A DNA stretch of 64,000 nucleotides from positions 1,612,001 through 1,676,000 of the forward strand of contig CP137319.1 in assembly GCA_033182465.1 (NCBI GenBank), in the 5' to 3' direction. This document shows positions 9,457-64,000 of this stretch, piece after piece. Position 1 is the first letter of the stretch. Every line of letters starts with the position of its first letter. The notes beneath the pieces are model-generated. The model saw only the letters and a program-made list of their open reading frames with translations, did not search any database and was not told where the DNA came from. This DNA is from Sanghuangporus weigelae (lineage: Eukaryota; Basidiomycota; Agaricomycetes; Hymenochaetales; Hymenochaetaceae). Position numbers and translations under genes: made by a program.

Positions 9457-9707
9457 AATCTGACGCATTTATTTTATTTCTTCTTGCAGGCAGGGAACCA
9501 TGCCTAGTTCCATAAAGTACTCAATATTTGTCGTCATCTTTGTCATGAGAACATACCGCTTTGCCCGAACAACTAATGAAGATGCTGGCCGAAAGCTGAT
9601 TTTGACGAAGTCGACACTGAGCACATTTGGAATCACTTTTGGCCTTAAATGCTGGTGCGTTGACCATCATAGTAGTATGGCAATCTGACAATTTGATAGC
9701 CATTGCA
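9457..9707 (+). pseudogene. 5' fragment of a degenerate gene related to the AT-hook gene at 27.5-29.7 kb
   Basis: This stretch and the segment after the gypsy-1 element (22019-22490) are two halves of one gene. Nucleotides 9655-9707 align with the minus strand near 29170-29120 (shared GCGT.GACCAT.ATAG). Across the insertion point the joined reading SDNLIAIA / FDVQPDNG aligns without gaps to SNDLIDYADNSDQEY in the other copy. Both read on to D-S-V-SYM. The first exon with the AT-hook is not seen here, and frames conflict upstream, so I call it broken. Function unknown. Confidence 0.55.
9703..9707 (+). repeat. Target-site duplication TTGCA (left) of gypsy-1
   Basis: TTGCA directly precedes the 5' LTR and recurs at 22019-22023 directly after the 3' LTR, the 5-bp duplication expected of Ty3/gypsy integration. 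Confidence 0.93.
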
Positions 9708-10057
9708 TGAAAGGATCCGCTCAAAAACTCGCATCAGGATCGACACGATCAACAGATCTACACGATCAGCTTTCCAAACGCGACCGGTAACCAAGCCAGC
9801 TATCAAAGGCCCAAGCAATCGAGCGGCCTAGGCAACAGTAACCCGTTACCACCCGAGCGCTAGAAGCACCGAAGCGGATACGTAATCCCGTTAACAGCTA
9901 ACACCGCCGACCGCCTATTACCGCGGACTACCACTCTAACGCCGCCGACCAAGCAACCAGAGCGACCTCGATCAAAAGAAGCGATCAAACTTCTTAGAAG
10001 TCCAGAAGCACAACTACTAAAGCCTAAACGCTAAAAGGCTAAAGGCTAATAAGGTTT

Positions 10058-10699
10058 ATGGAGACCTCACTGGCATTTCAGCACTGTCAAGTCTGTGCAC
10101 GAGTTTACATGGTCCTTTATGAAGTATACTACTTAGTATGCACGGCAACGGTTGGTACGCGTGACTGTCACATCGAAACCGAGCGACACCTTCAGGATAC
10201 AATGCATTCCAATCCACCAAGCCCAATAGTACCCAAGAAACGAGAGGAACTCACGATCACAACTCGGACCCCTCGAACTGCGAACCCGATAACTTGGAGA
10301 ATGATTGGATGGTATAGACCGGAGTTGCACACACCATGTCCAGCATCTACGATACAGGCAAACCTTTATTTACCGAGAGATGCGAACCTGGAAACCAAGC
10401 AATTACAACTCCTTATACAACGAAGGATATGGCGCTACATTCGAGATATACGATACGAAGGCAAAGCATGGCTAGTCACCAGAACCCAGCAGAACCCACC
10501 AGCAGAGCTTATGCAGTTCATGATATGCCTTGGACCATACTCTACACCGACCCGACACCTTAACACTGACGTGCGAGTTATGCTTACCCTCGCTGGACCT
10601 CGAGATGAATTCCGAAGAATCACATACCGAGCAGCCTACATCGCTCCAAGAGCAAAGATGCCACTCAATGACGGCAATGACATCGTTATGGAGTACTGA
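10058..10699 (+). CDS. U3-encoded ORF of gypsy-1, 213 aa, function unknown (5' LTR copy)
   Basis: ATG 10058 to TGA 10699. The product starts METSLAFQHCQ. It has a Cys/Tyr-rich N-terminal third with a short hydrophobic run (VYMVLYEVYYLVC), then a basic region (LLIQRRIWRYIRDIRYEGK). No family recognised. Identical in the 3' LTR (20847-21488). In the older solo LTR (minus, 51657-51001) the frame is retained but has two CGA-to-TGA stops. In genomic RNA the translated copy would be the 3' one, beyond pol. The length and protein-like composition argue for real coding, but expression is unproven. Confidence 0.5.
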   Translation: METSLAFQHCQVCARVYMVLYEVYYLVCTATVGTRDCHIETERHLQDTMHSNPPSPIVPKKREELTITTRTPRTANPITWRMIGWYRPELHTPCPASTIQANLYLPRDANLETKQLQLLIQRRIWRYIRDIRYEGKAWLVTRTQQNPPAELMQFMICLGPYSTPTRHLNTDVRVMLTLAGPRDEFRRITYRAAYIAPRAKMPLNDGNDIVMEY

Positions 10700-10796
10700 C
10701 AGTAGAGCATTCCATATCGAAGCACCACCTCTATTGTCTCAGTCAGCAACTCCAAAGAATTCTGTCATAGTGGAGACGACCTTACAAAGATTGGAG

Positions 10797-10882
10797 CAAA
10801 GTGGAGCGAAGCGCAGCAGGATGACAAAGGAACAGATGTAATGGTGGAGAAAGGTGGAGAAAAGTGGAGTAAAGTGGAGACA
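10797..10882 (+). promoter_or_regulatory. Purine-rich GTGGAG(A/T)AA repeat array in U3
   Basis: Repeated GTGGAG motifs (10799-10805, then four in tandem in 10844-10881) about 80-160 bp upstream of the predicted RNA start. Their position suggests upstream activator sites; no factor can be named from sequence alone. Confidence 0.4.
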
Positions 10883-10923
10883 GGATGAGTAAGAAATAGG
10901 ACGGAAAATGGAATATCTGGGAG

Positions 10924-10932
10924 CATAAATAG
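10924..10932 (+). promoter_or_regulatory. TATA-like box of gypsy-1 (CATAAATAG)
   Basis: CATAAATAG lies 35 bp upstream of 10959, the 5' end predicted independently from the PBS complement. The same sequence is at 21713-21721 in the 3' LTR. Confidence 0.6.
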
Positions 10933-10958
10933 TTGTAGGATTAGGCCCTCATTTCCCC

Positions 10959-10970
10959 ATCTTTCGATCC
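10959..10970 (+). promoter_or_regulatory. Predicted RNA 5' end / self-primer of gypsy-1
   Basis: ATCTTTCGATCC is the exact reverse complement of GGATCGAAAGAT at 11232-11243, two bases after the LTR. In Tf1-type elements the first ~11 nt of the RNA fold back onto the PBS and are cleaved to prime minus-strand synthesis. The geometry here matches and marks the likely transcription start. Confidence 0.7.
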
Positions 10971-11231
10971 TCTTAACACACTGGTGTAAAGCTTGCCCTA
11001 CAGCGAGCTATTACTGTGTGCTTTGTACTATCACGCCTCTTGGAAATCCCAATCTGCTTTACTATTACCTCGTATCTGAAAGCATCCATAACTCGGACAG
11101 TGACTAAGAAGGCTAGTAAGGGACCGCGTGGTACAGCCAGACGTGGGTAGATAAGATCACCTCTGCACAACACACCGCTGCTTAGGCAAAAGGATTGAAC
11201 CGGTGTAACCCCGGGCCTACTCCCTAACATT

Positions 11232-11243
11232 GGATCGAAAGAT
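11232..11243 (+). other. Primer-binding site of gypsy-1 (self-priming type)
   Basis: GGATCGAAAGAT begins 2 nt after the 5' LTR. It pairs over 12 nt with LTR position 10959-10970. No match to a tRNA 3' end (TGG...) was recognised at this position. Confidence 0.7.
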
Positions 11244-11290
11244 CACTCGCTAGTGTTACCACCACCTCTCACGGGCAAGGTTCTTGGCTA

Positions 11291-11632
11291 GTGTTTTATC
11301 GAGGCGAGGACCGTCGACCTCAAGTCCCTATCGACGCCACTAGTTTCGAGACTAGTACCCATATCGAATCCTCAGGACAAGTGCACATCCTGGAGAACGA
11401 CAAACCCGATTCACTTAAATCACATATCTACTATCATAACCCCTACAACGACGAAGTGTACCTAATAGCAAAGGCATCTGGTAGCCCTGCAGTTGGGAGC
11501 ACGCAAACAACAACCACGAAAGTAGCAGCAGTCCCTTCCACTATTGCTACATTCGACGAGAAAGGAACTACTTGGTTAACAGCACCAAGGAACAATAACC
11601 CTGAAGCATCAGGCGAGAAACGAAGTTCATGA
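11291..11632 (+). other. ATG-less open frame upstream of the coiled-coil ORF (113 codons)
   Basis: An open frame from a GTG at 11291 to TGA 11632, with no in-frame ATG. Its stop overlaps the next start as ATGA (11629-11632). The composition is Ser/Thr-rich and no family is recognised. Since no AUG occurs anywhere between the predicted RNA start and 11629, this frame may simply be leader. Otherwise it would need non-AUG initiation or splicing. Confidence 0.3.
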
Positions 11633-12663
11633 ACCGATCAGGAAACGCCAACAACAGAAGTAACGGTCATCGAACGAACGAACGGGCGAACGATAATCAA
11701 ACAAGGTTCACACCTAGATCCCTCGACGAACGAGTTCAACATATCACCAACAGGCTACGTAGTCTGGAAAGCGATCACGACATACTATACGCGACAACGA
11801 ACCACAGCATATTGTATCCACCAGTGATCAGAAGGCTACAAGAAAGGGTTGAAAGACTGGAAGAACGAACTGCAAACACGGGGCAGTCAAACAGTCTACC
11901 AACCGGAGCATACGCGACAGCAGTAGGAGATCGATTCGAAGCACTAGAAGCAACTACTCAAAGAATTGGAGCACAAGTAGCAGCTCTAGAGAGATATACT
12001 CTGGAATTGGATCGAGCAGCAGGAGCACTCAATCATCGGGTCATAGACGGAAACGGAGTACTTGACCGAGAGCTCAACGCTATCCGGAACAGGATTACTG
12101 CTCAGGAACAACAACTACAAACGATCGAGACGAGAGTCGGAGAGCTTAACAGGACAGCTCTAGATCAACCAAGGATTGTTCAAGACATCCATAACCTGCG
12201 AGAAGCCCTACTCCAACTAGGACAAACAATCGAGTCGAGTCAACGCACCTACGCAGCTATACTCACATCGGTACAGACAACCGAAACCACCTCGAGGAAC
12301 ATACTCGAACACGCTCAACGAATTCGAGAAGTAGCTCAGGCAGCACAACGCTGGGAATACTTTCTACCAAGAGAGAGAGCCCAACAGGAACAGAGTTCTG
12401 ACGAATCAGTGTCCTCAGACGAAGAAGCATCACGAAGGCCATTCTTACTCAGAACCCCACCTCGAACGGTTATCATCCAAGTACCAACAGTACCTGCAGT
12501 ACCAGCAAGTGGTTCAGTAGCAACCCAAGCGCCAGAGAATCCACCACCACCATCCTATTCACCACCAGCAGTGCCCATAAGCACTTACGATCATGTCGAC
12601 AACCGACCAGAAGGTGCAAGCACTGGAGCAGCAACTACAGACTCTTCAGACACAACTCTCTAA
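11629..12663 (+). CDS. Gypsy-1 ORF2: coiled-coil protein with PPxY motif upstream of gag, 344 aa
   Basis: ATG 11629 is the first AUG of the predicted transcript. Residues 1-30 are Asn/Arg-rich. About residues 35-235 are predicted heptad coiled coil (for example VIRRLQERVERLEERT and LDRELNAIRNRITAQEQQLQ). The tail is acidic (SSDESVSSDEEAS) and then proline-rich, with PPPPSYSPP (PPSY at about 307-310), matching the PPxY late-domain consensus. It overlaps the gag start by 71 nt in another frame. A structural protein (matrix-like or assembly scaffold) placed before gag is the simplest idea, but this is inference; no homolog is recognised. Confidence 0.7.
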   Translation: MNRSGNANNRSNGHRTNERANDNQTRFTPRSLDERVQHITNRLRSLESDHDILYATTNHSILYPPVIRRLQERVERLEERTANTGQSNSLPTGAYATAVGDRFEALEATTQRIGAQVAALERYTLELDRAAGALNHRVIDGNGVLDRELNAIRNRITAQEQQLQTIETRVGELNRTALDQPRIVQDIHNLREALLQLGQTIESSQRTYAAILTSVQTTETTSRNILEHAQRIREVAQAAQRWEYFLPRERAQQEQSSDESVSSDEEASRRPFLLRTPPRTVIIQVPTVPAVPASGSVATQAPENPPPPSYSPPAVPISTYDHVDNRPEGASTGAATTDSSDTTL

Positions 12664-13681
12664 ACACAGCATCAAGCTTCCGAAGTACTATGGCAAGCGA
12701 AGCGAAGATATTGATCTGTGGATTAGTCGATGTATCTCGAAGCTGGCACAGCATGGAGTCAAGGATGAGGAGGAGATCGCAAAGAGCCTATTTGCGGCAC
12801 TAGAAGGCGACAGCTACGATTGGTTTGCAGAGAAGAATACCCTAACATCATTCGATGCCAATGGGAAACTGAAACCAGTACCTGCGATTATCGCTGCAAC
12901 AAATGGAATGTTCGCATCACTCAAGGACATGCTGAACTGGATGAGGATCCGAGCAGGACATCCGATCATTGGAGAACAGGAAGCCCTATTCCAACTACTA
13001 TGCATCCAGCAGAAAGGAGCAAGCATTAGGGCGTACAACGACGAGTTCCGACGACTCAAAGCACGAGCACCAGACACGATGGATAAGCAGATGCTCAAGT
13101 ACATCTATGTCAAAGGACTAGACATGTGGGTCAAACGACGAGTCGAATCTGTACAACCCGACGCTTTCGAGAAGAACGACCTCGATGCATGGATGGAATG
13201 GACAAGCAACCTAGCAAACTCTGATGCCAGGCAAAGGCTCATGGGTAGTCAAACATACACCCCGAGATTCAAATCGAACGGACAGTCATCTTTCCGACCA
13301 CCAGTACAAACAACGAAACGAGATCCAGACGCCATGGATGTAGATGCACTCCGAGGCTTGCCGAAGAAGGGAGGCAAATGCTACAACTGTGAAAAGTCAG
13401 GACATTACGCAAAGGATTGCAAGGCACCAAGGAAGCAAAAGGGTTCTTCCTCTAAGCGGCCGAAGAAGACTAATGGTGTAAAACGGAGGACGATGACAAC
13501 ACGAACAATCGATTTCAAGGAAACATGTCCCGATCCACACTGCCGAAGGCCAGTCCACTACGATCATGTAGCATGGGCTAAAGGCGACGAATCAGCAGGA
13601 TGGACTTGCAAGCATGACGAAGAATACCGAAACAACATTCGCAAATCCCTAGCAAGTAAAGAGCAACAGGGAAAAGATTAA
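12593..13681 (+). CDS. Gypsy-1 Gag (capsid/nucleocapsid), 362 aa
   Basis: Capsid-type Gag of a Ty3/gypsy element. An N-terminal leucine-rich coiled segment is followed by a retrotransposon-gag core (LWISRCISKLAQHG, GDSYDWFAEK, GASIRAYNDEFRRLK; about residues 35-215). A basic linker and a CCHC zinc knuckle CYNCEKSGHYAKDC (C-X2-C-X4-H-X4-C, about residues 263-276) come next. A further Cys/His cluster (CPDPHCRRPVHYDH...CKHD) follows near the C-terminus. ATG 12593 lies inside ORF2, so translation requires reinitiation, leaky scanning or a shift. It ends TAA 13679-13681, two codons after a slippery heptamer. Confidence 0.9.
   Translation: MSTTDQKVQALEQQLQTLQTQLSKHSIKLPKYYGKRSEDIDLWISRCISKLAQHGVKDEEEIAKSLFAALEGDSYDWFAEKNTLTSFDANGKLKPVPAIIAATNGMFASLKDMLNWMRIRAGHPIIGEQEALFQLLCIQQKGASIRAYNDEFRRLKARAPDTMDKQMLKYIYVKGLDMWVKRRVESVQPDAFEKNDLDAWMEWTSNLANSDARQRLMGSQTYTPRFKSNGQSSFRPPVQTTKRDPDAMDVDALRGLPKKGGKCYNCEKSGHYAKDCKAPRKQKGSSSKRPKKTNGVKRRTMTTRTIDFKETCPDPHCRRPVHYDHVAWAKGDESAGWTCKHDEEYRNNIRKSLASKEQQGKD
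13669..13675 (+). promoter_or_regulatory. Predicted -1 ribosomal frameshift site G GGA AAA between gag and pol
   Basis: GGGAAAA is in phase with gag codons (CAG GGA AAA GAT TAA), matching X XXY YYZ. A -1 slip enters the pol frame, which has no stop from here to ATG 13786 and onward. A possible stem CATCG/CGATG (13688-13692 with 13705-13709) begins 12 nt downstream. Confidence 0.65.
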
Positions 13682-13785
13682 GACCTCCATCGAACGAGAC
13701 TGCGCGATGTGAGTGTGACAAGGGTGACGAGAAAGGTTTCAACAACCAGTGTTTCAAACCTCCTGGGTTCAACCCCAGTGAAGCG

Positions 13786-16700
13786 ATGTACAATAAGCGA
13801 TTGCCAATACAAGCATTGCATCCCCGATTACCTATTCGAGTGAAGGTTGGAACAAAGACCCTAGCAGTCAAAGCGTTAATCGATTCCGGAGCTACATGCA
13901 GCACGATACACCCCAACTTGGTACGACACTACAGCCTATTCAAAAAGAGGCTTGATCACCCTCGACCTTTGAATAATGCGGATGGAAGTCCCAACCAAGG
14001 AGGAGCAATCACGCACGAGGTCTACACATTAATTTTTGATGGACCTAAACCGCAGCCACAAACGTTGGCAGTAGCAACCACAGGACAGGATCAAGTGATC
14101 CTAGGAATTGACTATTTGGCCAAAGTCAATCCCGAAATTGATTGGAAGAATCAAGTATGGAATCGGAATGGTAATTCGATACCATTTGAGCTCAACGTCA
14201 TACGAGCTACCAAGAAGCGAAGGCACAGGAAGCGCAAACGGAAACGGCAAACGAAAGGCAAACCTGACAAGACAAGACCTAGGCATAACACGAAGCAACA
14301 GGCTCAGGACAGAGACAACTATCGACACTCTGGAGCACCAGGAATAATATTTGCGCCAAGGAGAGACAACAACGGACACTCTCACGAAACGAAGCCACAA
14401 GCGAAGCCGGAAACCAGACCAGCAACACCAAGACTGGAACAGGCAAAACAGACGCCAGAAGTGAAGAGTCCGAGCACGGAAAATATACCAGACTCTGCAA
14501 CGAAACAGCCACAACAGGAAACGGCAAACAAGCATCATCGAGATGAGGAGGAAATAAACTACACTCCCAAGCGATGGAAGAAACAGGCACCACAAGGAAC
14601 GAGTATAGTGCAACGACGACCAAGGCACATACCGAGACGGATGATCCCAGCACGGCAACTGTACCAGACATCCGAAGGTGAAACACAAGATGTAACAGGC
14701 AAGCATAGCCTAGATGAACAGGAGGAAATAAACGACTCTCCGAAACGTTGGAAGAAACAACCACCACAGAAGATACACCCACTGAGGCAAAACATGCCGG
14801 AAGATGAAGAACTCTGGCCATCACCAGAAGAAAACCCGGGCATGAAGTATAGGATACGACCACGAAAGACACGGTATCCAGAGAAGCCAGTGGCAGGCAT
14901 TATACGACCGAGAACGGCATCGTTAATGCGAGGAGCTAGTCCCACACCGAAGCGTACAAGATGGGCAGACAACGAAAGCGATATCGAGATGCAAGACGAG
15001 CAGGAGGCAACAGAAGACACTCCTATGCACGATATAGAGCCAGAAGACATTGAAAGTCTTAGGACGACCAACCAACCAGCTACCCTTACCAGAAAGGAAG
15101 AGCTCGCTGCAAAGCTAGAGCTAGACATCAATCGAAATTGGTCACCAAGGCAGCAGAACCAAGTCTCACAGCCTCTGAACAAAGCGAGTTCAGTATCCCA
15201 GCAGTATTCTCAACAAAAGGCAGCTGCAGAAGGACTACTTGGAACACAGAAACGAGATTGGCGAAAACTCCTACCAAAGGAAATAGAAGACTACGCAGAT
15301 GTCTTTGATCCTGACAAGTCAAGAAGGTTACCCAAGCATACGAAATGGGATATGGCGATTAATCTCAAAGAAGGAGTACCATTACCGAAACCAAGGCCTA
15401 TTATCAAGCTCACACGAGAAGAGCAGGCAGCACTCGATGCTTATGTCAAAGAGTTACTTGACAAAGGATGGATTGAAAAGGTTCAACCACATGAACCATG
15501 TCCGGTAGCAGCACCAGTCTTCTTTGTAGGAAAGAAAGACGGAGGAGCACGAGCAGTAACCGATTACCGAGACATCAACGACACGACAGTATCAGATCCA
15601 TACCCGATACCGATCATGAGTGTTCTCCCAGAGAAACTGGAGAAAGGAAAATTCTTCTTTACACTCGACATGCGATCAGGTTACAACAACCTGCGAATCC
15701 GAGAAGGAGACGAGTGGAAGGCAGCATTCCGAGTTGGCAATGCAGTCTACAAGCCAAAGGTCATGATGTTTGGAATGAAGAACTCACCTGCAGTATTCCA
15801 ACGATTCATGAATGACAACTTCGAATATTGGCTCAGGACAGAAGAAGCACTCAACTATTTGGACGACCTTATTGGTCAAGCACAAACTGAAGAGGAACAT
15901 TGGAAACTCCTCAGGGCAATTCTACAGAAATGCCGAGAGCTCGACATTTACCTCAAAATCGAGAAATGTCACTTCCTCCAAACCCAGCTCGACTACTTGG
16001 GATTTGTAGTAGGAACGAAAGGCATCCAGATGGATCCTTATAAGCTCAAAGCTATTCACGAATGGCCAGTGCCAAAGACGAAACGACAAGTTCGAAAGTT
16101 CCAAGGATTTTGTAACTTCTACCGAAGATTCATCAGGAACTATGCCGATACATTCGCACCTATTGGCGACCTTATCAAAAAGGATCGCAAGTTCATATGG
16201 GCAGAGGCACAAGATAAGGCATTCGAAAGTATCAAGAAGGCATTCGAAACGGAAGTCGCATTGGCAATGCCAAAGCCAGACAAACCATATACATTGGAAA
16301 CCGATGCATCCGATGTAGCGATTGGTGCAGTCTTACAACAAGAAGACAACCAAGGAGAACTGAGACCTTTAGGTTTCATGTCGAAAACTCTAACGAACAC
16401 CCAACGAAACTATCCGACGCATGACAAAGAGATGCTAGCAATCATGGAAGCACTCAAGCATTGGAGACACCTATTGGAGGGAACCAAAGAACCAGTAACA
16501 ATCCGAAGCGATCATGCAAATCTCCGATACTTCATGACAGCTCAGAATCTATCGAGACGTCAAGCGAGATGGGCATTAGAGTTATCACGATATAACTTCA
16601 AGATTCTCCATTGGCCAGGCAAGAAGAACCAAGCTGACGAGCTATCACGACGATCCGACTATATGCCAGAGGACAAGGACAACTTAGGAGTTACCTTATT

Positions 16701-18264
16701 ACCTCCTGATACGATCAAGCAACAAACATTGCGACGCACAGAGATCAACGGTCTATACAAGCTAGAAACTGAAATGGTCACTATCTCTGATCCTATTATC
16801 CGAACGATCAAGAGGAACTACAATACCGAGGAGGCTAAGAAGGAAATTCAGGCGATCAAGCAGAGCAACGGCTACAGTTACAGGAACGGCTTGCACTACG
16901 TAACCAATGCATTATATATCCCGCCGTCCGCCAACCTACGAGCGTTGCTAATCCGAAGGCGCCATGATCACAAACTTGCAGGCCACCCAGGAGCAGAAAA
17001 GACCATAGAGCTTGTAAAGCGATCATACTATTGGCCGAAGATGGAAGAAATGATCCGAGCATATACCGCAACCTGCGACATATGTCAGCGTGCAAAACCG
17101 ATTCGACAGTTTCGAAATCCGCCGCTCCAACCGTTGGAGGCACCACATCAACCATGGGAAACCATAACCTGTGACCTGATTACCGACTTACCAGTCAGCA
17201 ATGAAGGCTACAGCGCGATACTCGTTATAGTGGACAAACTCACTAAAATGGGGAAGTTCATTCCTTGCCAAGGGATACCCAATGCTAAGCAGTTGGCACG
17301 TTTGTTCCGCCAACATGTCTTCAAATACTACGGGGCCCCTAAACGAGTAATCTCCGACCGAGGTAGCAACTTCACCGCGCAATTCCTCAAGGAGTTCTGC
17401 AGACTCATCGATGTCGATTGGAAAACTAGTACAGCGTATCATCCACAAACCGATGGTCAAACCGAGCGACTAAATCAAGAGCTTGAACAGTACTTACGCT
17501 GCTATGTGTCCTACCGACAAACAGATTGGGCAGAGTACATCGATATAGCAGAATTCGCCTACAACAACAGGAAGCACAGTACTACACATCAGTCACCATT
17601 CTATACACTGTATGGATGGCATCCTCACCTGGACGTTGCGGAGACCGGTGATTCAAACGTCCCAGAAGCAATAAATCACCTAGAGGAGCTTCGACAAGTA
17701 CAGCAAGAAGCCTATAATTCGATTAGGCAAGCGAATGAGGCAATGAAGCTTTATGCAGACCTGCATCGAGGCAAACTGCCAGAGTACAAGCCAGGAGACG
17801 AAGTGTTACTAGACATGAGGAATCTCAGTCGATTGGAACCAACGAAGAAACTTGCAATGAAATGGGCAGGGCCTTATAAAGTCGAGAAGGCAGTCGGACA
17901 AGTGTCATTCAGATTACGCTTACCCGAAACCCTTCCGATCCACCCAGTGTTTCATGCGAGTCTTCTCAGGCCTTACAAACGAAAGGAATACCCTGGAAGA
18001 CCCACTTTGGATGAACCACCACCTATTGAAGTAGAGGGAGAAGCAGAGTACGAAGTGGAGACAATTCATAACACAAGACGTCATCGGAGCAAGGTCCAAT
18101 ACCTTATCCAATGGAAAGGATACCAGGAGCGAACATGGGAGCCACTTGACAACCTCAAGAACTCCTATCAAATGATCGAAGCATTCCATAAAAAGTATCC
18201 TCAGGCAATCCAGCCACCGAACCTTAACCAATGGATCGCCGCACGAAAACGAATGAGGCAATAG
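13786..18264 (+). CDS. Gypsy-1 Pol: protease, reverse transcriptase, RNase H, integrase, chromodomain (1,492 aa from first ATG)
   Basis: The replication polyprotein. Aspartic protease ALIDSGATCSTI (about 31-42). A long charged linker (about 150-490) contains two copies of EEIN.(T/S)PKRWKKQ. RT (about 540-760) has LDMRSGYNNLRI and the catalytic NYLDDLIG (about 689-696). RNase H begins TLETDASDVAIGAVL (about 835). Integrase has an HHCC zinc finger (H-X5-H ... CDICQ), then D in TCDLITDLP, D in VISDRGSNFT and E in TDGQTERLNQ. The C-terminal chromodomain is about 1420-1475 (VQYLIQWKGYQERTWEPLDNL). It is open throughout. The frame extends upstream to the gag end without stops, so a Gag-Pol fusion by -1 frameshift is likely. 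Confidence 0.96.
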   Translation: MYNKRLPIQALHPRLPIRVKVGTKTLAVKALIDSGATCSTIHPNLVRHYSLFKKRLDHPRPLNNADGSPNQGGAITHEVYTLIFDGPKPQPQTLAVATTGQDQVILGIDYLAKVNPEIDWKNQVWNRNGNSIPFELNVIRATKKRRHRKRKRKRQTKGKPDKTRPRHNTKQQAQDRDNYRHSGAPGIIFAPRRDNNGHSHETKPQAKPETRPATPRLEQAKQTPEVKSPSTENIPDSATKQPQQETANKHHRDEEEINYTPKRWKKQAPQGTSIVQRRPRHIPRRMIPARQLYQTSEGETQDVTGKHSLDEQEEINDSPKRWKKQPPQKIHPLRQNMPEDEELWPSPEENPGMKYRIRPRKTRYPEKPVAGIIRPRTASLMRGASPTPKRTRWADNESDIEMQDEQEATEDTPMHDIEPEDIESLRTTNQPATLTRKEELAAKLELDINRNWSPRQQNQVSQPLNKASSVSQQYSQQKAAAEGLLGTQKRDWRKLLPKEIEDYADVFDPDKSRRLPKHTKWDMAINLKEGVPLPKPRPIIKLTREEQAALDAYVKELLDKGWIEKVQPHEPCPVAAPVFFVGKKDGGARAVTDYRDINDTTVSDPYPIPIMSVLPEKLEKGKFFFTLDMRSGYNNLRIREGDEWKAAFRVGNAVYKPKVMMFGMKNSPAVFQRFMNDNFEYWLRTEEALNYLDDLIGQAQTEEEHWKLLRAILQKCRELDIYLKIEKCHFLQTQLDYLGFVVGTKGIQMDPYKLKAIHEWPVPKTKRQVRKFQGFCNFYRRFIRNYADTFAPIGDLIKKDRKFIWAEAQDKAFESIKKAFETEVALAMPKPDKPYTLETDASDVAIGAVLQQEDNQGELRPLGFMSKTLTNTQRNYPTHDKEMLAIMEALKHWRHLLEGTKEPVTIRSDHANLRYFMTAQNLSRRQARWALELSRYNFKILHWPGKKNQADELSRRSDYMPEDKDNLGVTLLPPDTIKQQTLRRTEINGLYKLETEMVTISDPIIRTIKRNYNTEEAKKEIQAIKQSNGYSYRNGLHYVTNALYIPPSANLRALLIRRRHDHKLAGHPGAEKTIELVKRSYYWPKMEEMIRAYTATCDICQRAKPIRQFRNPPLQPLEAPHQPWETITCDLITDLPVSNEGYSAILVIVDKLTKMGKFIPCQGIPNAKQLARLFRQHVFKYYGAPKRVISDRGSNFTAQFLKEFCRLIDVDWKTSTAYHPQTDGQTERLNQELEQYLRCYVSYRQTDWAEYIDIAEFAYNNRKHSTTHQSPFYTLYGWHPHLDVAETGDSNVPEAINHLEELRQVQQEAYNSIRQANEAMKLYADLHRGKLPEYKPGDEVLLDMRNLSRLEPTKKLAMKWAGPYKVEKAVGQVSFRLRLPETLPIHPVFHASLLRPYKRKEYPGRPTLDEPPPIEVEGEAEYEVETIHNTRRHRSKVQYLIQWKGYQERTWEPLDNLKNSYQMIEAFHKKYPQAIQPPNLNQWIAARKRMRQ

Positions 18265-18518
18265 TTGCATCACATGCACTCCACCCGATGGAGCCGCTTA
18301 TGGATCCACAATAGAGACGATGAGTAAGGTCCCCAATGACCTTACCAAGCGATGACATCAATGTGGCACACCAAAGCGAGAGCAGAGATAGAAGAATTAG
18401 GCAAGACATCGCCGACATACCAACAAGATGGTATAAAACATGGGGAACTTCGAGCTGAACGAACAACAACTCGAATCTCAACAGCTCTACTTCACTGCAG
18501 ACGAACCACTACTCAGCT

Positions 18519-19517
18519 ATGCCTATCTTCGACGAGCTACATGCATTCTGTCAACCAGAAGATGCACCAGAATGGACATTTACACTCAGACCACCGACCG
18601 AACGTTATCAATGGCCACAGCTGTGCAACCGATTCAACGAAGAGAACTACGAAGATGAGATTGTACCCCTATGCCCAGGGAAGTACTTTGATGATCTATT
18701 CGACAAGTGGAACGCAGTCCACCACAACCGAGACGAAATACCCCATCTTATGATGGCGAATCACTCAGACGAGTGGTTATTCAAACTCAGTAACCCTCGA
18801 GACGCAGCATTACGCCGACTCAATGATGATGCATTTCTAACCTACGCGATCGAACTCGAAACACAAGCATTACATCGAGGCAAGATCGACTTTAGGCACG
18901 AAACGACATACAAGAACATCATGGGCATCTATCATTCGGCAATTCAAATTTGCGCCTACCGACGAGACATGACTACCGCAATTCTTAACCGAATGATGCG
19001 ATGGAGTCACTATCATCCGATGAGCGTCGATGCGATGAAGTACATTATATACATAGCCGACCAGACGGGCTTCTATGCATCCCACACCATGCAGTTCATG
19101 ACGGTACTCAACATGACGAAGTATTACGAAGGAACGAGATACCGAACGGTTATTGAAGCGAGGAACTCTACTACGGACGAGGTACCACTCGACAACATCG
19201 AGCACCACGTAGTCGAAGGCAAAGAGGTTAACTACGACCCTCATTACCTTATGGAACTCAACAACCGAGAGGAAGAAGCCAGAGAAAAACTACAGGCTAC
19301 ACGACACCCCTTGCTGGAAGATCTGATGATCTCAGTCTACCAGTACCCGAACGAACTCTACCAGCCGGACGAGATGCTTACTATGTCGGAACAGGAGGAC
19401 ATGTACATACACTCCGACGATACAGAGTCAAGTGAAGAAGGTGAAAGCAGGGAACTATATACCCCAGCGAACTCGGCCCAGACTACACCTGAGGCTGAAG
19501 AATCCGAAGATTTGTAA
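18519..19517 (+). CDS. Gypsy-1 accessory ORF after pol, 332 aa, function unknown
   Basis: ATG 18519 (MPIFDELHAFCQPEDAPEW) to TAA 19517, 254 nt after the pol stop. It has a globular-looking N-terminal two thirds rich in Tyr, Met and Trp (FDDLFDKWNAVHHNRDEIPH, IIYIADQTGFYASHTMQF), then an acidic Ser/Glu/Thr-rich tail (DDTESSEEGESRE). No signal peptide, membrane segment or catalytic motif is recognised. It occupies the env position of errantiviruses but lacks envelope features. Expression would need a subgenomic or spliced RNA or reinitiation. The open frame in a young element argues that it is real. Confidence 0.65.
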   Translation: MPIFDELHAFCQPEDAPEWTFTLRPPTERYQWPQLCNRFNEENYEDEIVPLCPGKYFDDLFDKWNAVHHNRDEIPHLMMANHSDEWLFKLSNPRDAALRRLNDDAFLTYAIELETQALHRGKIDFRHETTYKNIMGIYHSAIQICAYRRDMTTAILNRMMRWSHYHPMSVDAMKYIIYIADQTGFYASHTMQFMTVLNMTKYYEGTRYRTVIEARNSTTDEVPLDNIEHHVVEGKEVNYDPHYLMELNNREEEAREKLQATRHPLLEDLMISVYQYPNELYQPDEMLTMSEQEDMYIHSDDTESSEEGESRELYTPANSAQTTPEAEESEDL

Positions 19518-20056
19518 ACAACTCTTCTTTTATGCAACCCCTTTCCCATATCGTGACCCGACATGGTCAATTATGCATTTCATTCTTACCTTATGATATT
19601 TATGGTCACATCCGACCAAATTATGCTTTATGCACCTCTTTATTTCACGCTTATTCGGCCAACCAGCACAAATGAAGCACTATGCAGAAGTGTCAAAGAA
19701 CCTACAAGGGCCTAGACATTTTGTATATTGTTTTATTGTGCCGGCTCCGAATTAGCAGATTATGCCTACCTTTTATTATCCTCTATGCAACGGAGAAGCC
19801 AAAAGTTTACGTGAAGTCACTCCCTTGCATCATGCTAGGATGTGCCTTCACGCTGAAAGGCACTCCAATTACACTCTTTCTTCGAAAAACTCCATTTGGG
19901 GGTTGAAGAGCCGTAGGTAAACACCTGGAACTTCACTCCCAAATTGGTATAAAACTTATTCATTAACGACTTTATGATTTCTTTCTTATCACTTTCAATT
20001 GCGTCATATTCTTTACATGATGCACATTTCATATTCATATCCCTTCCCACCACCCT
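19518..20056. other. Noncoding stretch of gypsy-1 between ORF 332 and the antisense gene
   Basis: AT-rich, pyrimidine-rich on plus. It could serve as 3' UTR for both converging transcripts. A 72-codon minus-strand frame (20053-19835) is present but has no protein-like features I would support. Confidence 0.4.
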
Positions 20057-20372
20057 TTACAAGTCAATGTCTTCCCAGACACCCTTTTCACGACGTTCCT
20101 GCGAAGCAATACCTGCATTTTCGATGACTGGATCGATATCCTCAACGTCATAACCGAGCGCGAGGTGAACTCGAAGCGCGACAGTAGTAACATCGCGCTG
20201 GAACGATTGCATTTCGAAGTCAGCCTCCTAGAGGATGATTAACAACTCGAAACGGCACAGAGCATGCATCACTTACCTGAGCACGCCTCTTACGCTCCAA
20301 AATCCAATGATTTATGCCGAAAATTGCGACAATAACGACAAAAACAGTAACAGCAGCGGCGACTTTCGACAT
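20057..20372 (-). CDS. Antisense spliced gene in gypsy-1: small single-pass membrane protein, 88 aa
   Basis: Read on the minus strand, opposite to all other gypsy-1 genes. Exon 1 is 20372-20277, exon 2 is 20227-20057, joined in frame by a 49-nt intron (GTAAGT...CTCTAG with a TTAAT branch-like site). The product has a hydrophobic N-terminal segment (VAAAVTVFVVIVAIFGIN, residues ~4-21), a basic stop-transfer stretch (ERKRRAQ), and a mostly acidic soluble tail ending GVWEDIDL. One membrane pass with a cytosolic tail is the likely topology. The start is 125 bp from the 3' LTR, so a promoter in or next to U3 would drive it. Function unknown; not a known gypsy component. Confidence 0.6.
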
Positions 20373-20455
20373 TTTGGAGCAGAGATGATGATGGTTTGAT
20401 AGCAAAAATCAACCATCACTAGGCGACCCTTTATCCGAGCTTTCACACGGATTAG

Positions 20456-20481
20456 GATGAACATTTCTCCGAAAGTTCATC
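20456..20481 (+). repeat. Hairpin directly upstream of the gypsy-1 polypurine tract
   Basis: GATGAAC and GTTCATC pair, with inner TTTC/GAAA around a TCC loop and one bulged A: an 11-bp stem directly 5' of the PPT. Confidence 0.6.
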
Positions 20482-20496
20482 TTAGGGGGGGTGTAG
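20482..20496 (+). other. Polypurine tract of gypsy-1
   Basis: TTAGGGGGGGTGTAG immediately precedes the 3' LTR; the G run is the likely plus-strand primer. Confidence 0.75.
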
Positions 20497-22018
20497 TGAA
20501 AGGATCCGCTCAAAAACTCGCATCAGGATCGACACGATCAACAGATCTACACGATCAGCTTTCCAAACGCGACCGGTAACCAAGCCAGCTATCAAAGGCC
20601 CAAGCAATCGAGCGGCCTAGGCAACAGTAACCCGTTACCACCCGAGCGCTAGAAGCACCGAAGCGGATACGTAATCCCGTTAACAGCTAACACCGCCGAC
20701 CGCCTATTACCGCGGACTACCACTCTAACGCCGCCGACCAAGCAACCAGAGCGACCTCGATCAAAAGAAGCGATCAAACTTCTTAGAAGTCCAGAAGCAC
20801 AACTACTAAAGCCTAAACGCTAAAAGGCTAAAGGCTAATAAGGTTTATGGAGACCTCACTGGCATTTCAGCACTGTCAAGTCTGTGCACGAGTTTACATG
20901 GTCCTTTATGAAGTATACTACTTAGTATGCACGGCAACGGTTGGTACGCGTGACTGTCACATCGAAACCGAGCGACACCTTCAGGATACAATGCATTCCA
21001 ATCCACCAAGCCCAATAGTACCCAAGAAACGAGAGGAACTCACGATCACAACTCGGACCCCTCGAACTGCGAACCCGATAACTTGGAGAATGATTGGATG
21101 GTATAGACCGGAGTTGCACACACCATGTCCAGCATCTACGATACAGGCAAACCTTTATTTACCGAGAGATGCGAACCTGGAAACCAAGCAATTACAACTC
21201 CTTATACAACGAAGGATATGGCGCTACATTCGAGATATACGATACGAAGGCAAAGCATGGCTAGTCACCAGAACCCAGCAGAACCCACCAGCAGAGCTTA
21301 TGCAGTTCATGATATGCCTTGGACCATACTCTACACCGACCCGACACCTTAACACTGACGTGCGAGTTATGCTTACCCTCGCTGGACCTCGAGATGAATT
21401 CCGAAGAATCACATACCGAGCAGCCTACATCGCTCCAAGAGCAAAGATGCCACTCAATGACGGCAATGACATCGTTATGGAGTACTGACAGTAGAGCATT
21501 CCATATCGAAGCACCACCTCTATTGTCTCAGTCAGCAACTCCAAAGAATTCTGTCATAGTGGAGACGACCTTACAAAGATTGGAGCAAAGTGGAGCGAAG
21601 CGCAGCAGGATGACAAAGGAACAGATGTAATGGTGGAGAAAGGTGGAGAAAAGTGGAGTAAAGTGGAGACAGGATGAGTAAGAAATAGGACGGAAAATGG
21701 AATATCTGGGAGCATAAATAGTTGTAGGATTAGGCCCTCATTTCCCCATCTTTCGATCCTCTTAACACACTGGTGTAAAGCTTGCCCTACAGCGAGCTAT
21801 TACTGTGTGCTTTGTACTATCACGCCTCTTGGAAATCCCAATCTGCTTTACTATTACCTCGTATCTGAAAGCATCCATAACTCGGACAGTGACTAAGAAG
21901 GCTAGTAAGGGACCGCGTGGTACAGCCAGACGTGGGTAGATAAGATCACCTCTGCACAACACACCGCTGCTTAGGCAAAAGGATTGAACCGGTGTAACCC
22001 CGGGCCTACTCCCTAACA
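20497..22018 (+). repeat. Gypsy-1 3' LTR
   Basis: 1,522 bp. I find no difference from the 5' LTR by eye. It is followed by the TTGCA duplication at 22019-22023. Confidence 0.95.
20847..21488 (+). CDS. U3-encoded ORF of gypsy-1, 213 aa (3' LTR copy)
   Basis: Identical to the frame at 10058-10699. This copy is the one carried at the 3' end of genomic RNA, downstream of pol. A protein coded in U3 has a precedent in MMTV Sag. No sequence similarity to Sag is claimed. Confidence 0.5.
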   Translation: METSLAFQHCQVCARVYMVLYEVYYLVCTATVGTRDCHIETERHLQDTMHSNPPSPIVPKKREELTITTRTPRTANPITWRMIGWYRPELHTPCPASTIQANLYLPRDANLETKQLQLLIQRRIWRYIRDIRYEGKAWLVTRTQQNPPAELMQFMICLGPYSTPTRHLNTDVRVMLTLAGPRDEFRRITYRAAYIAPRAKMPLNDGNDIVMEY

Positions 22019-22490
22019 TTGCATTTGATGTACAACCGGATAATGGACGCGACCTGTCGGTTCTATCTTACATGCGCCTCGTGAGAAATCTCAAACGTAA
22101 AATTAAGGTCCAGTATGCTCCCAATGAAAGACGATTGATACTCATTGTTCTAGATTACGAGGGGGGCGCTTTGCGCAAAATGAACATCAAATCACAACAC
22201 AACATAATGATGTGTGTCAGAACGCCACCTCGCCGCAGTTCAAGAAGATTACCACAAATGTTCTAGCATGGTACCTCGACTCCAATGAAGGCATTGACAA
22301 ACTCGTTAAAGGATATAGCACTGATGAACACGATCAATGAACGGTAGGTGCGATTGTTTACCTTGCCCCTTTCCTTGCATTGTGCGCTTATTTGTTTCAA
22401 TTAGAAGTGTTCCAAACACTCAGGAAACGCTTTCACCAGTGCAGCCCAAGCAACTTCAATGCAATGCTCGCATTTCATATGTGTAACTGT
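22019..22490 (+). pseudogene. 3' fragment of the gene split by gypsy-1 (related to the gene at 27.5-29.7 kb)
   Basis: The frame from 22021 reads DLSVLSYMRLVRNLKRK ... GGALRKMNIKSQH. It aligns with DSSVVSYMHFIENLERE ... GWALRKMNVEPQH of the minus-strand gene. After a shift it reads KITTNVLAWYLDSNEGIDKL, matching KIQSWYLKSDVDLDELVQVF. An intron-like GTAGGT...TTAG (22342-22404) leads to KCSKHSGNAFTSAAQATS, matching KGSKRSG...TSAAEATK. Order and orientation are conserved, but frames are disrupted and the coding end is lost, so it is a relic. Function unknown. Confidence 0.6.
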
Positions 22491-50480: not shown

Positions 50481-51992
50481 TGTTAGGGAGTAGGCCCGGG
50501 GTTACACCAGTTTGATCCTTTTGCCTAAGCAGCGGTGTGTTGTGCAGAGGTAATCTTATCTACCCACGTCTGGCTGTACCACGCAGTCCCTTACTAGCCT
50601 TCCTAGTCGCGGTCCGAGTTATGGATGCTTTCAGATATGAGGTGATAGTAAAGCAGATTGGGATTTCCAAGAGGCGTGATAGTACAAAGCACACAGTAAT
50701 AGCTCGCTGTAGGGCAAGCTTTACACCAGTGTGTTAAGAGGATCGAAAGATGAGGAAATGAGGGCCTAATCCTACAACTATTTATGCTCCCAGATATTCC
50801 ATTTTCCGTCCTATTTTTTACTCATCCTGTCTCCACTTTACTCCACTTTTCTCCACCATTACATCTGTCCTTTTGTCATCCTGCTGCGCTTCGCTCCACT
50901 TTGCTCCAATCTTTGTAAGGTCATCTCCATTATGACAGGATTCTGTGGGGTTGCTGACTGAGACAATAGAGGTGGTGCTCCGATGTGGAATGCTCCACTG
51001 TCAGTACTCCATAACGATGTCATTGCTGTCATTGAGTGGCATCTTTGCTCTTGGAGCGATGTAGGCTGCTCGGTATGTGATTCTTCGGAATTCATCTCGA
51101 GGTCCAGCGAGGGTAAGCATAACTCGCACGTCAGTGTTAAGGTGTTGGGTTGGTGTAGAGTATAGTCCAAGGCATATCATGAACTGCATAAGCTCTGCTG
51201 GCGGGTTCTGCTGGGTTCTGGTGACTAGCCATACTTTGCCTTCGTATCGTATATCTCGAATGTAGCGCCATATCCTTCGTTGTATAAGGAGTTGTAATTG
51301 CTTGGTCTCTAGGTTCGCATCTCTCGGTAAATAAAGGTTTGCCTGTATCGTAGATGCTGGACATGGTGTGTGCAACTCTGGTCTATACCATCCAATCATT
51401 CTCCAAGTTATCAGGTTCGCAGTTCGAGGGGTTCGAGTTGTAATCGTGAGTTCCTCTCATTTCTTGGGTACTACTGGGCTTGGTGGATTGGAATGCATCG
51501 TATCTTGAAGGTGTCGCTCGGTTTCGATGTGACAGTCGCGTGTACCAACTGTTGCCGTGCATACTAAGTAGTATACTTCATAAAGGACCATGTAAACTCA
51601 TGCACAGACTTGACAGTGCTGAAATGCCAGTGAGGTCTCCATAAACCTTATTAGCCTTTAGCCTTTTAGCGTTTAGGCTTTAGTAGTTGTGCTTCTGGAC
51701 TTCTAAGAAGTTTGATCGCTTCTTTTGATCGAGGTCGCTCTGGTTGCTTGGTCGGCGGCATTAGAGTGGTAGTCCGCAGTAATAGGCAGTCGGCGGTGTT
51801 AGCTGTTAGTGGGATTATGTATCCGCTTCAGTGCTTCTAGCGCTCGGGTGGTAACGGGTTACTGTTGCCTAGGCCGCTCGATCGCTTGGGCCCGTGATAG
51901 CTGGCTTGGTTACTGGTCGCGTTTGGAAAGCTGATCGTGTGGATCTGCTGATCGCGTCGATCCTGATGCGAGATTTTGAGTGGATCCTTTCA
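50481..51992 (-). repeat. Solo LTR of gypsy-1 family (1,512 bp) inside gypsy-2 gag
   Basis: Reverse-oriented and co-linear with the gypsy-1 LTR; flanked by CATAG (50476-50480, 51993-51997). It retains the self-primer sequence (near 50739-50750, minus). The U3 ORF is broken by two CGA-to-TGA stops. It marks an older gypsy-1 insertion lost by LTR-LTR recombination. Confidence 0.93.
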
Positions 51993-52690
51993 CATAGGGG
52001 TTTGTTCCCCAGTTCTGGTGTGTGTTTCCAGTTTTCTTTCTGATTCTACTGGTTCTAATGTAATTACAGTAGCTGGGCTGGTCGAAGGGTAATACCCTGC
52101 TGGTCTCCAGTTAGATATAGATGGATTGTTGTCTACGTCCATCTGGTAAGTACCTTGTACTTCCGGAGCTTTCGCAGGATTGACACGCAGTTCTTCATGA
52201 GGTCTTTTGATTCTCTCGCAGAAAATTTGAGCTACATCCCTGATGTGCCCCCTCGCAGGCAGTACTACTGCCGCGGTATCCTGGTGAGCGTCCCCACCAG
52301 TCAGAGTATCTTCCTCTGACTCCTTTCATTTTGTTCCTTCAGTACAAATTGAGTTTGGGGAGAGCTGTTTCTCCACAGCTCCTACAGACAGCCGTCTGCC
52401 CCGGTATTGACGTTTTACAATCAGTATATCTCTGTTGACTTCCCAAACACGTACTTCCTTGTTGCGCAACGTGATAATATTCTTTAATAGATCCATAGAT
52501 ACGGTGAGCACTTGAAAACAACACAGAACAAATGAAAATCAGTGAAACTCAGCTATTTTTGTGTTTTTACAGATAATAAGTCAACTGTTGCAGGTACCAG
52601 TAGGTTGATCAGACCTGTAGGCTCCTCAACAACATCGACTATGACGATAGCGATTAAATACGAAGCAGTTTGGTTGAACAGTCAAAAATA

Positions 52691-57690: not shown

Positions 57691-57943
57691 TGTTAGATCA
57701 CACAAGTCCAGCAATGGACCACTGAGTCCAGTGGTGAGTACACTTGATGTTATATTAACAGTCTAACTACATACCTGAGTCCAGTGGTGAGTACACTTGA
57801 TGTAGGGTACTCACCAATGGACTGTGCCGCTTTTACAGAAGATTACATAAGCATCACATGATCAAGAAAGCGGACATAACAAACAATATAAACAGAATAA
57901 GAAACAACAAAATACTAACAGTGTCAGAATCACACTTCTAACA
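57691..57943 (-). repeat. Copia C3 3' LTR (253 bp)
   Basis: TGTTAGATCACAC...CACTTCTAACA on plus. It includes the two 45-bp internal units. Confidence 0.95.
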
Positions 57944-57970
57944 CTCCCCCCTGATCTGACACTTCTTCCT

Positions 57971-60900
57971 TCAACATAATCCCAGCATCCTACACATCTC
58001 CTGCACCTTCACTCTGCTTAGTGCTTTGGTCATGATGTCAGCTGGCATGGTCTGAGTAGGCAAGTAATGCACATTGATATGACCAGCCTCTACAACATCT
58101 CTCAACCAGTAGAAGCGCAGATCTAGGTGTTTCATGCGTCCATGATACTCAGAATTGTTTGCCACAGACAGAGCAGACTGGTTATCAATGTACAGGGAAG
58201 AAGGTGCATCAAACTTGTAGCCAAACTCTGTAAACAGATTTCTAAGCCACATAATCTCTTGTCCTGCACTGACAGCAGCAATGTATTCTGCTTCAGTGGT
58301 GGACAGAGTCACAAAGGGCTGTAGCTTGCTAGCCCAGCTGATAGCACCAGTTCCCATCTTGACAACCATCCCACTTGTGGAGCGCCTGTTATCCTCATTT
58401 CCTCCATGGTCAGCATCACAGAAGGTAGTGAACAGCTCAGAGGACTTAGGATCAGGTGCATAGGTTAGCCTGAAATCCTTGGTGCCCTGCAGATAGCGAC
58501 ATAAATGCTTTGCTGCCTTCCAATGAGTTGGACCAGGATTAGAACTAAAGCGTCCTAAGACACCAACTGCATATGCAATGTCTGGCCTTGTAGCTATAGC
58601 CAGATACATGAGTGCACCAACCAATTGCTTGTAGGGCACTTGCTTCATGTATTCAATCTCTGCAGGGGTCTTGGGAGCCATGTTCTTGCTGAGCTTCTGC
58701 TCAGGGAGAGGAGTAGTAACAGTGCCACAGTTGCTCATGCTGAAGCGCTCTAGCACATCAATAATGTACTGTCTCTGTGACAGACTGATAGAGTGCTTAG
58801 AGCGGTCTCTCTCAATGTGAACTCCTAGTAGGAATGAGGTTGGGCCCAGTTCATGCAGTTTGAAGTGCTTGGCCAGCTCATCTCTGACAGATTCATACTG
58901 CTGCTTGGACTTTGCAGCAATAGTCATGTCATCAACATAGACTGGAATAATGATGCGCACTTCATCCCTGCTGTACACCCAAATGCTGTAATCACAGCGC
59001 ACTAACTTGAAGCCCATGCTCTTCATCACTGAATCAAGCTTCTTGTGCCATTGGTGGCCAGCCTGCTTAAGGCCATAAATTGACTTGATCAGCTTGAGAA
59101 CAAATCCAGGGCCAAAGTAGTCCTCAAATCCTTCAGGCTGGTTCATGTAGACATCATGCTCCATCTCACCATTGAGGAAAGCAGTAGAGATGTCAACACT
59201 GTACAGCTCAAGGTCCTCAAATGCAGCCAATGCCAGGATAGCTCTAAGTGCAGCCCATTTGGCTGTAGGAGCAAACACCTGAGAGAATTCAAGTCCTGGT
59301 TGCTGTGAGAATCCCTTGGCTACCAGCCTTGCCTTGTACCTGTCCACAGATCCATCTGCCTTGCGCTTGAGCTTGAACACCCATCTGCATCCAATGGGCT
59401 TTCTGCCAGGAGGCAGTCTGACTGGCTCAAATGTGCCATTCTCAATCAGACTGATAAATTCCTCCATGGCTGCCTTCTCCCAGAGGTCTGCATCAGGGCG
59501 TCCTTTGATGTCCTTCCACTGATAGGGTTCAGGACTGATGTGTTGCACACCTTGTGCAGAGAACACATGCTCAGCGCAATGAGATGTCTGAAGTGCATAT
59601 TCCAGAGCATCCTCATAAGACAGATAGATGTCCTCCAGTCCTGCATTAGCACCAAAATCCATCAGGCCAGCAAACATCAGTGCTTCAGCTTGCAACTCCT
59701 CTTCTGACATGATGTCCAGTTCATCAGGTGAATCACTGTCCATCTCAACATCCTGCTCTGGCTGCTCTACAACATCTGGCTGTGCTGCAGAGTCAGTTTC
59801 AGAAGCAGTGTCAGGTGCAGTGTCAGATGCAGTTGGCTCTGCTGAGTTGAAGTTGAAGCGCTGTGGTGGAATAGGAGAGCCTGGCACACGTCTGGGAAGG
59901 CGCTTTCCAACATAGTCCACATCCCACCAGCCAGTGGTATGACGTCTAATAGGCCTCCACATTGGATCTGGCCACCAGGGAGAAGCAGGCCTTTGTTTCT
60001 TTGAGGCCTGCTCAGATGGCAGAGGTGAAGTAGTATGTTCATGCTTTGGAGGATGAGTAGCTGGTGGTGAAGGAGGATGATGTAAAGGACCATGTGGTGG
60101 AGGACTAGGTGATGGATTGGGTGGAGGACTGGGTGTAGGTGTAGGTGTAGGCATAGGAGGATCTGCTGGATGTCCAGGAGCAGGTGGAGGAGGAGGAGCT
60201 GGCAGAACATCAATAGCATCCTCTACTCCCCTCTGTTCTGGCAGGTCTTCTGTCTGTGCAGGCATATTCACCCTCAGGTCAACTGGGTTTCTGGATGTAC
60301 CAGGGAACACTCTCTCATCAAACTGAGCAGAGTCACTAATAACTTCCTTCCTGGTAAGAGGATTCCAGAACAGCCAGCCTTTATAGTTAGAGGGATAGCC
60401 TAGGAACACACATTTCTGTGTGTGGGACTGCAGCTGCTTGTGTTGATCTTTCTTCACAAGCACATAGGAGGTGCATCTAAATACACGCAGGTGAGAGACA
60501 TCTGGCTTTGACTGATACCAGAGCTCATAGGGTGTACTAGCAGACACAGCAGAGGTGGGAGAGCGGTTGTGCACATGCACAAATGCTGCAACTGCATCCC
60601 ACCAGAAGGTAGAGGGCAAATGCACTTCATTAAGCATAGTAGTGATGCCCTCTGCAAGTGTCCTGTTGGCACGCTCTGCAACACCATTCTGATGAGGTTC
60701 ATCTCTAATAGTGTGCTGCCTGTGGATGCCTGCAGTGATGCAGAACTGATCCCATTCCTTAGACACATACTCTCCACCTTTATCATCACGAGTGGCCTTA
60801 ATCTTCACTCCCAATTGATTCTCTGCATAGGCCTTAAATTGTTTGAAGGCAGCAAATGCATCACTCTTCTTCTTCAAAGGGAGAACAGCCCAGTAGCGAC

Positions 60901-63951: not shown

Positions 63952-64000
63952 GTCTATCTATGGCCTTAAGCAGGCTGGCCATCAATGGCACAAGAAGCTT

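Follow-up and report, generated by a model that had tools for sequence, protein, structure and literature searches.

A chromodomain Ty3/gypsy retrotransposon (chromovirus) of the basidiomycete Sanghuangporus weigelae carries, antisense to gag-pol, a predicted two-exon accessory gene, and the codon changes among its copies indicate that this gene is real and under selection, neutrality being rejected. The element lies within a window of 64,000 nt (assembly GCA_033182465.1, contig CP137319.1, positions 1,612,001 to 1,676,000), and all coordinates given here count from the first letter of that window (Table 1). As an explanation of the whole, we consider it very probable that the gene is element-borne and has a private promoter, and that its transcript would be spliced once to yield an 88-residue, single-pass membrane protein that binds a partner.

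Table 1. Features of the element and of its antisense gene
Feature	Position	Strand	Basis and remarks
5' LTR, 1522 nt, TG...CA	9708..11229	+	0 mismatches vs 3' LTR
gag	12593..13681	+	zinc knuckle above Pfam cut-off; Retrotrans_gag and Ty3_capsid matches below
pol	13786..18264	+	RT, RNase H, integrase, SH3 and chromodomain above cut-off; aspartyl protease match below
332-aa acidic sense ORF, function unassigned	18519..19517	+	between pol and antisense gene
Exon 2: 56 codons + stop; acidic tail, conserved C-terminal motif AGI..QE.REKG.WE	20057..20227	-	translation, alignments
Intron, 49 nt, GTAAGT...TAG	20228..20276	-	GT...AG in 69/69 copies; lengths 48, 49 or 50 nt
Branch-point-like TTAAT, putative role	20238..20242	-	TTAAT in 67/69, CTAAT in 2/69 (the two most diverged copies)
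Exon 1: 32 codons; start codon in CAAAATGTC context, putative transmembrane segment, ERKRR	20277..20372	-	CAAAATGTC in 66/69 distinct copies
Strongly conserved block, antisense ATG to 3' LTR	20373..20496		identity over ten pairs
GATAAA box, candidate TATA-like promoter element	20430..20435	-	~60 nt upstream of antisense ATG
Inverted repeat GATGAAC...GTTCATC	20456..20481		adjoins polypurine tract; arms kept in 6/6 aligned copies
Polypurine tract region (TTAGGGGGGGTGTAG)	20482..20496	+	sequence reading
3' LTR, 1522 nt	20497..22018	+	target duplication TTGCA (5 bp) at 9703-9707 and 22019-22023

Structure of the gene and its predicted product

An earlier note, made from the letters of the window, had described a minus-strand gene of two exons with a 49-nt GTAAGT...TAG intron and a product of 88 residues, and translation together with a splice check reproduced this structure. 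The exons join in frame across an intron (GTAAGT...CTAG) whose length is not divisible by three, and the product reads MSKVAAAVTVFVVIVAIFGINHWILERKRRAQ from exon 1 and EADFEMQSFQRDVTTVALRVHLALGYDVEDIDPVIENAGIASQERREKGVWEDIDL from exon 2. Three acceptor AGs lie in the scanned stretch 3' of the donor: the TAG at 20228 yields 88 residues, an AG 3 nt beyond it yields 87 with the frame unchanged, and an AG closer to the donor yields 37. The marks of a spliceosomal intron are present in all 69 distinct copies described below, with GT...AG ends and a branch-like site in 69/69 and exons that stay in frame at intron lengths of 48-50 nt.

The sole hydrophobic segment of the product comprises residues 2-20 (Kyte-Doolittle 2.41, 19-residue window); ERKRR forms the basic run, and the net charge of the 56-residue tail is -9, so that the transmembrane segment, basic run and acidic tail named in the earlier note were all recovered. 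Against Pfam the product gave one match, which is below the cut-off and is not bZIP. Against the PDB there was no significant match; the best (E 0.58) is a transmembrane piece of a receptor and was judged to be chance. A structure model of a homologue from S. baumii (P0002) has a mean pLDDT of 69.7 and a pTM of 0.32, and is shallow and weak beyond the N-terminal helix. Its sequence features support the reading of this locus as an accessory gene that is antisense, spliced and protein-coding, with one putative transmembrane segment.

Protein searches returned eight clusters comprising 29 sequences, all of them hypothetical proteins of Sanghuangporus with 88 or 91 residues; neither a homologue from outside Sanghuangporus nor any Botrytis protein was among the results. 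The S. weigelae entry P0001 is 95% identical to the product, the S. baumii entries P0002-P0006 (88 aa) are 57-63% identical, and P0007 and P0008, also of S. baumii, have 91 residues, P0007 at 45% identity. All eight clusters match end to end and are uninterrupted at the splice junction. This continuity fits placement of the same intron by other annotators, and a deposited gene may also be intron-less. Identity peaks at the N-terminal start, in the basic run and in the C-terminal motif, while the middle of the tail varies and holds the sole indels among the deposited relatives.

The host element

Identical LTRs with TG...CA ends and the TTGCA target duplication mark the element as a very recent insertion. 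Five Pfam domains of pol are above the cut-off, in the order RVT_1 (582-741), RT_RNaseH (831-936), rve (1121-1220), SH3 (1337-1398) and Chromo (1422-1470), and the chromodomain at the integrase end identifies the element as a chromovirus. The antisense gene occupies the interval between the end of pol and the 3' LTR, the position of the genes known as aORF-3R, with the 332-aa sense ORF on one side and the polypurine tract on the other. The 332-aa ORF has neither a Pfam match nor a transmembrane segment. Its dN/dS is 0.08-0.16 in five comparisons, two of them with stops, and its identity to L062, one of the two most diverged copies, is 47% across 222 residues, with dS saturated.

Two further sense ORFs were observed in the element. 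One of 344 aa (11629-12663, +) precedes gag and overlaps it in a different frame; its Pfam matches are all weak and below the cut-off, several of them to coiled-coil families. The other, of 213 aa, is present in each LTR (10058-10699 and 20847-21488, +) and probably belongs to U3, since it lies upstream of the TATA-like CATAAATAG. It has no Pfam match. In ten LTR copies, aligned as 11 pieces of which 6 have stops, its dN/dS is 0-0.26 and its dS reaches 0.74, values by which it is a predicted LTR-encoded protein under purifying selection.

Copies in the genome

Copies were sought with an S. baumii homologue, which located at least 109 exon-2 places in the genome. The 74 loci that were read represent 69 distinct copies, among which the gene has 30 different sequences and its coding part 29. 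This collection was made through exon 2, and elements without the gene fall outside the count. A search of the genome with P0007 gave known copies only, among the matches listed. Forty of the 109 candidates were scored and are 99-100% identical, and at that identity their agreement alone proves nothing. In the diverged copies the exons are free of indels at an exon identity of 64-79%.

In every one of the 69 distinct copies both exons are in frame and the intron is retained with GT...AG ends. The intron is GTAAGT...TAG with 49 nt in 63 copies, begins with GTGAGT in four and has a CAG acceptor in one; in the remaining type, a 1-nt deletion (L061) gives GTAGTG and a length of 48 nt. The most diverged copies, L031 and L062, have 50-nt introns, the CTAAT branch-like site and exons without an indel. 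Within the gene, the indels seen among these copies all lie in the intron. The earlier note had named related elements with both exons interrupted by stops, or with the splice sites gone, as the pattern that would speak against the gene; what we found was an intact frame and intact splice ends throughout, with a premature stop in 1/69 copies (L062), close to the end of the frame. An LTR match in element orientation accompanies the gene at 69/69 loci (position given for 11). For the end of the 332-aa ORF, four copies (L031, L062, L064 and L069) lack a DNA match of more than 100 nt.

The element around L062 is a mosaic: identity to the window is 86-89% for its pol pieces (79% for one that spans the end of pol), 76-79% for its LTR and 65% for its antisense exons. 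L076, L062 and L077 lie in a decayed element in which pol is mostly near that of the window, with the LTR and accessory genes far more diverged, a pattern that suggests recombination between families. Elsewhere, three copies of the antisense gene (G000:C6:1191500, 1202279 and 1213058) are spaced by exactly 10,779 bases. This is near the LTR-to-LTR period of the element (10,789), and the trio would be a tandem array whose members probably share LTRs.

Selection on the protein

The comparison of dN and dS across copies that the earlier note had proposed gave ratios of 0.14-0.43 in the ten pairs examined. For the window and L031, dS is 1.46 and dN 0.27, with 30, 14 and 39 changes at the three codon positions. 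A codon model (GY+F3X4) fitted to the 29 distinct coding sequences returned an omega of 0.388 (2dlnL 29.7 vs omega 1), and for 27 young sequences an omega of 0.390 (2dlnL 15.6); kappa was fixed at its free estimate in these fits, which slightly favours the free model. The young copies hold 63 distinct variants, of which 33 are silent, 30 replacing and none a stop, where 18.2, 44.8 and 3.5 were expected (p 8e-5, a value that assumes independent variants).

When the observed changes were redistributed at random, as few replaced residues as observed arose in 2/2000 trials for window-L031 and in 0/2000 for window-L062. The weakest of the 11 pairs were L031-L062 (193/2000, not significant) and L001-L047 (70/2000, marginal), and the remaining seven gave 11-46/2000. 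A six-frame control on exon 2 of window-L031 found the gene frame to be the least changed, with 23/56 codons altered vs 25-34 of 55-56 in the other frames, and the closest competing frame has stops in both copies. In exon 1 of the same pair, however, two stop-bearing frames rank ahead of it (15/31 vs 16/32 for the gene frame), and in the young pairs that include L063 and L065 the gene frame of exon 2 is tied with a stop-bearing opposite frame. Coding on the sense strand was considered as the source of the pattern and rejected: two of the three opposite frames have stops in exons 1 and 2 of the window itself, and the third changes more in every compared pair and exon.

Measured against the other ORFs of the element, the antisense gene (omega 0.39, pairs 0.14-0.43) is conserved like the element's other proteins (0-0.26 for the U3 ORF, 0.08-0.16 for the 332-aa ORF). 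Purifying selection on the 88-residue protein means that the copies that spread tended to hold the gene intact, and hence that the protein benefits the element or the host's tolerance of it. Judged from these sequence comparisons, the element probably needs the membrane protein.

That the locus is a chance open frame, two short ORFs joined across a chance GT...AG in a T-rich strand and alike only through the youth of the copies, is hardly credible, for although small ORFs are common and the 40 scored copies are near-identical, the diverged copies and the proteins of other species keep the frame, the splice ends and the motif, the codon models and variant counts reject neutrality, and the gene frame is the least replaced in exon 2 of window-L031; the selection tests refute it unless the alignment set misleads.

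The conserved upstream block

The 120 nt upstream of the antisense ATG are 86-98% identical over ten pairs, and 86-94% in deep pairs whose exons are 64-79% identical. Because this flank exceeds the exons in DNA conservation, other constraints act on part of the region, and DNA conservation alone was dropped as evidence for the gene. Both a promoter and plus-strand priming could impose the constraint on the block. A GATAAA box occurs within 75 nt upstream of the ATG in 68/69 copies; together with the upstream block, this conserved box is a candidate for a promoter of the gene's own. The arms of the inverted repeat next to the polypurine tract are kept even in two copies whose LTRs are ~75-79% identical to those of the window.

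Proposed expression and possible roles

Transcription would start from a separate promoter just inside or adjoining the 3' LTR and run opposite to gag-pol, and the transcript would be spliced once and translated into the 88-residue single-pass membrane protein. Its N-terminus would act as a signal anchor, and ERKRR, by the positive-inside rule, would place the acidic tail in the cytosol. The strongly conserved motif at the end of the tail would most likely bind a partner, either Gag or a host factor at an intracellular membrane. Since the RNA that is copied in retrotransposition is the sense one, with both splice sites in reverse, the intron can persist. This had been the reasoning of the earlier note, and retention of the intron in all copies read agrees with it, as expected if the genomic RNA is the reverse complement. 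Since only the antisense transcript can lose the intron, it doubles as a built-in strand marker.

As to role, the earlier note had tentatively named particle assembly or release. Membrane docking of Gag or of particles is a plausible suggestion that we would advance tentatively; countering of host control is possible but doubtful, and the same may be said of self-limitation or some other function. More speculatively, this would be a complex-retrovirus-like fungal element that adds three proteins to gag and pol, namely the membrane protein from the spliced antisense gene, the one of 332 aa on the sense strand and one encoded in the LTR (probably in U3), with the membrane protein anchoring Gag or particles to an internal membrane in a replication cycle that uses membranes. 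We think this unlikely as a complete picture; if true, it would introduce a membrane step unexpected for an element without an envelope.

Among the alternatives to an accessory gene that serves the element, a host gene may have been captured as genomic DNA, reversed and with its intron, and then kept as a useful transduced gene. A complete gene with an intron, a Kozak-like start and a candidate promoter is what such an event would be expected to leave. However, the LTR match in element orientation holds at every locus, no copy outside the element is found among the 69 read (40 of the 109 exon-2 places being unread), and no donor is visible, given the lack of significant Pfam or PDB matches and of relatives outside Sanghuangporus in our searches. 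Nor was a host gene copy seen beside the copies read. Host capture is improbable as an explanation, though it may account for the origin of the gene.

Alternatively, the element could limit itself through this product, a small membrane factor that would act as a control on copy number. There is precedent in antisense proteins of animal retroviruses, as described in the available portions of one source: APH-3 and APH-4 suppress transcription driven by the 5' LTR, and HBZ opposes effects of Tax (PMC10186651). The same portions place HBZ and APH-2 in the nucleus and APH-3 in nucleus and cytoplasm (PMC10186651), to which a membrane anchor fits poorly, and more than 100 copies speak against strong restraint. 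We rate such a restraining product as unlikely. Far less probable still is a role for the antisense transcript as RNA, through dsRNA or siRNA control of the element, with the protein incidental. Antisense RNAs of other retroelements may act in this way, according to excerpts of a review (PMC7264820), and such RNA from the present gene would overlap with that of the sense strand; but an RNA-only role would give neither the excess of silent over replacing changes nor the confinement of indels to the intron in 69 copies. A dual form, in which RNA and protein are both functional, is possible.

Comparison with known antisense genes

An accessory gene of the kind proposed here has relatives in plan. 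HIV-1 Vpu, a sense-strand lentiviral protein of ~80 residues, has an N-terminal anchor, a basic run and an acidic cytosolic tail; this likeness is one of plan only. HIV-1 ASP overlaps env and is not known to have the two-exon layout seen here. ASP is like the present product an antisense-encoded transmembrane protein, but one with two transmembrane domains, as given in part of a review (PMC10186651). In the same portion, hbz of HTLV-1 and its relatives are spliced antisense genes transcribed from the 3' LTR side (PMC10186651), as is predicted for the gene here. They differ in encoding bZIP or regulatory proteins of animal retroviruses, whereas our product has a single putative transmembrane segment and, by Pfam, no bZIP domain.

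An antisense gene between pol and the 3' LTR (aORF-3R) is an established category, with Botrytis cinerea given as a non-plant case in the available parts of PMC7264820. Excerpts of three sources cite Zhao et al. 2011 for brtn, an antisense gene in the Boty-like element of B. cinerea (PMC7264820, PMC8365987, PMC4227169); it is an additional gene at this position (PMC7264820), and Boty-like elements are said to combine a chromodomain gag-pol with brtn (PMC4227169). Given this category and its fungal precedent, the find is less singular than the earlier note implied. Boty resembles the present element in being fungal, in its chromodomain gag-pol and in the placement of the antisense gene between pol and the 3' LTR; its host is an ascomycete rather than a basidiomycete, and the two were compared by description.

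The plant aORF-3R genes Grande gene23, RIRE2, Retand ORF4/TRP28 and PvRetro13 are like ours in position, orientation and conservation; they are present in most copies, to set beside the 69/69 loci read here, and gene23 has its own upstream promoter, as far as the excerpted text of two sources describes them (PMC7264820, PMC11963269). Their products are unlike ours: that of Grande is nuclear, those of PvRetro13 and Retand have SMC or putative DNA-binding domains (the latter encoded by the Retand antisense ORFs; PMC11963269), and the surveyed Retand ORFs are mostly >600 bp (PMC11963269), unlike the 88-residue gene here. In the excerpted text none of the plant genes is described as spliced, the word 'intron' having 0 occurrences (PMC7264820, PMC11963269), and the review urges a search for antisense and spliced transcripts (PMC7264820). 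The portions of the literature searched, which did not include the primary brtn paper, contain no spliced antisense membrane gene of a fungal LTR retrotransposon; the novelty of this gene would lie in the combination of splicing with a membrane product, in a basidiomycete element.

That LTR retrotransposons can have antisense genes is known, but what these genes do is unexplained, and several of the plant products look nuclear or DNA-binding. The present gene offers an unusually tractable case: it is small, apparently spliced and membrane-anchored, its codons show clear selection, and the element around it is young, fungal and high in copy number, with relatives deposited from a second species. 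It poses the question of why an element without a recognisable envelope gene needs a membrane protein.

Other observations in the window

The sense strand of the element is A-rich, with an AT skew of 0.19-0.40 in its six 2-kb bins (10001-22000); of the remaining 26 bins, only 62001-64000 (0.20) is as high. A second LTR in reverse orientation (50481-51993, -) is 96-97% identical to that of the element. At 57691-63954, two identical 256-nt direct repeats ~6 kb apart probably bound another element.
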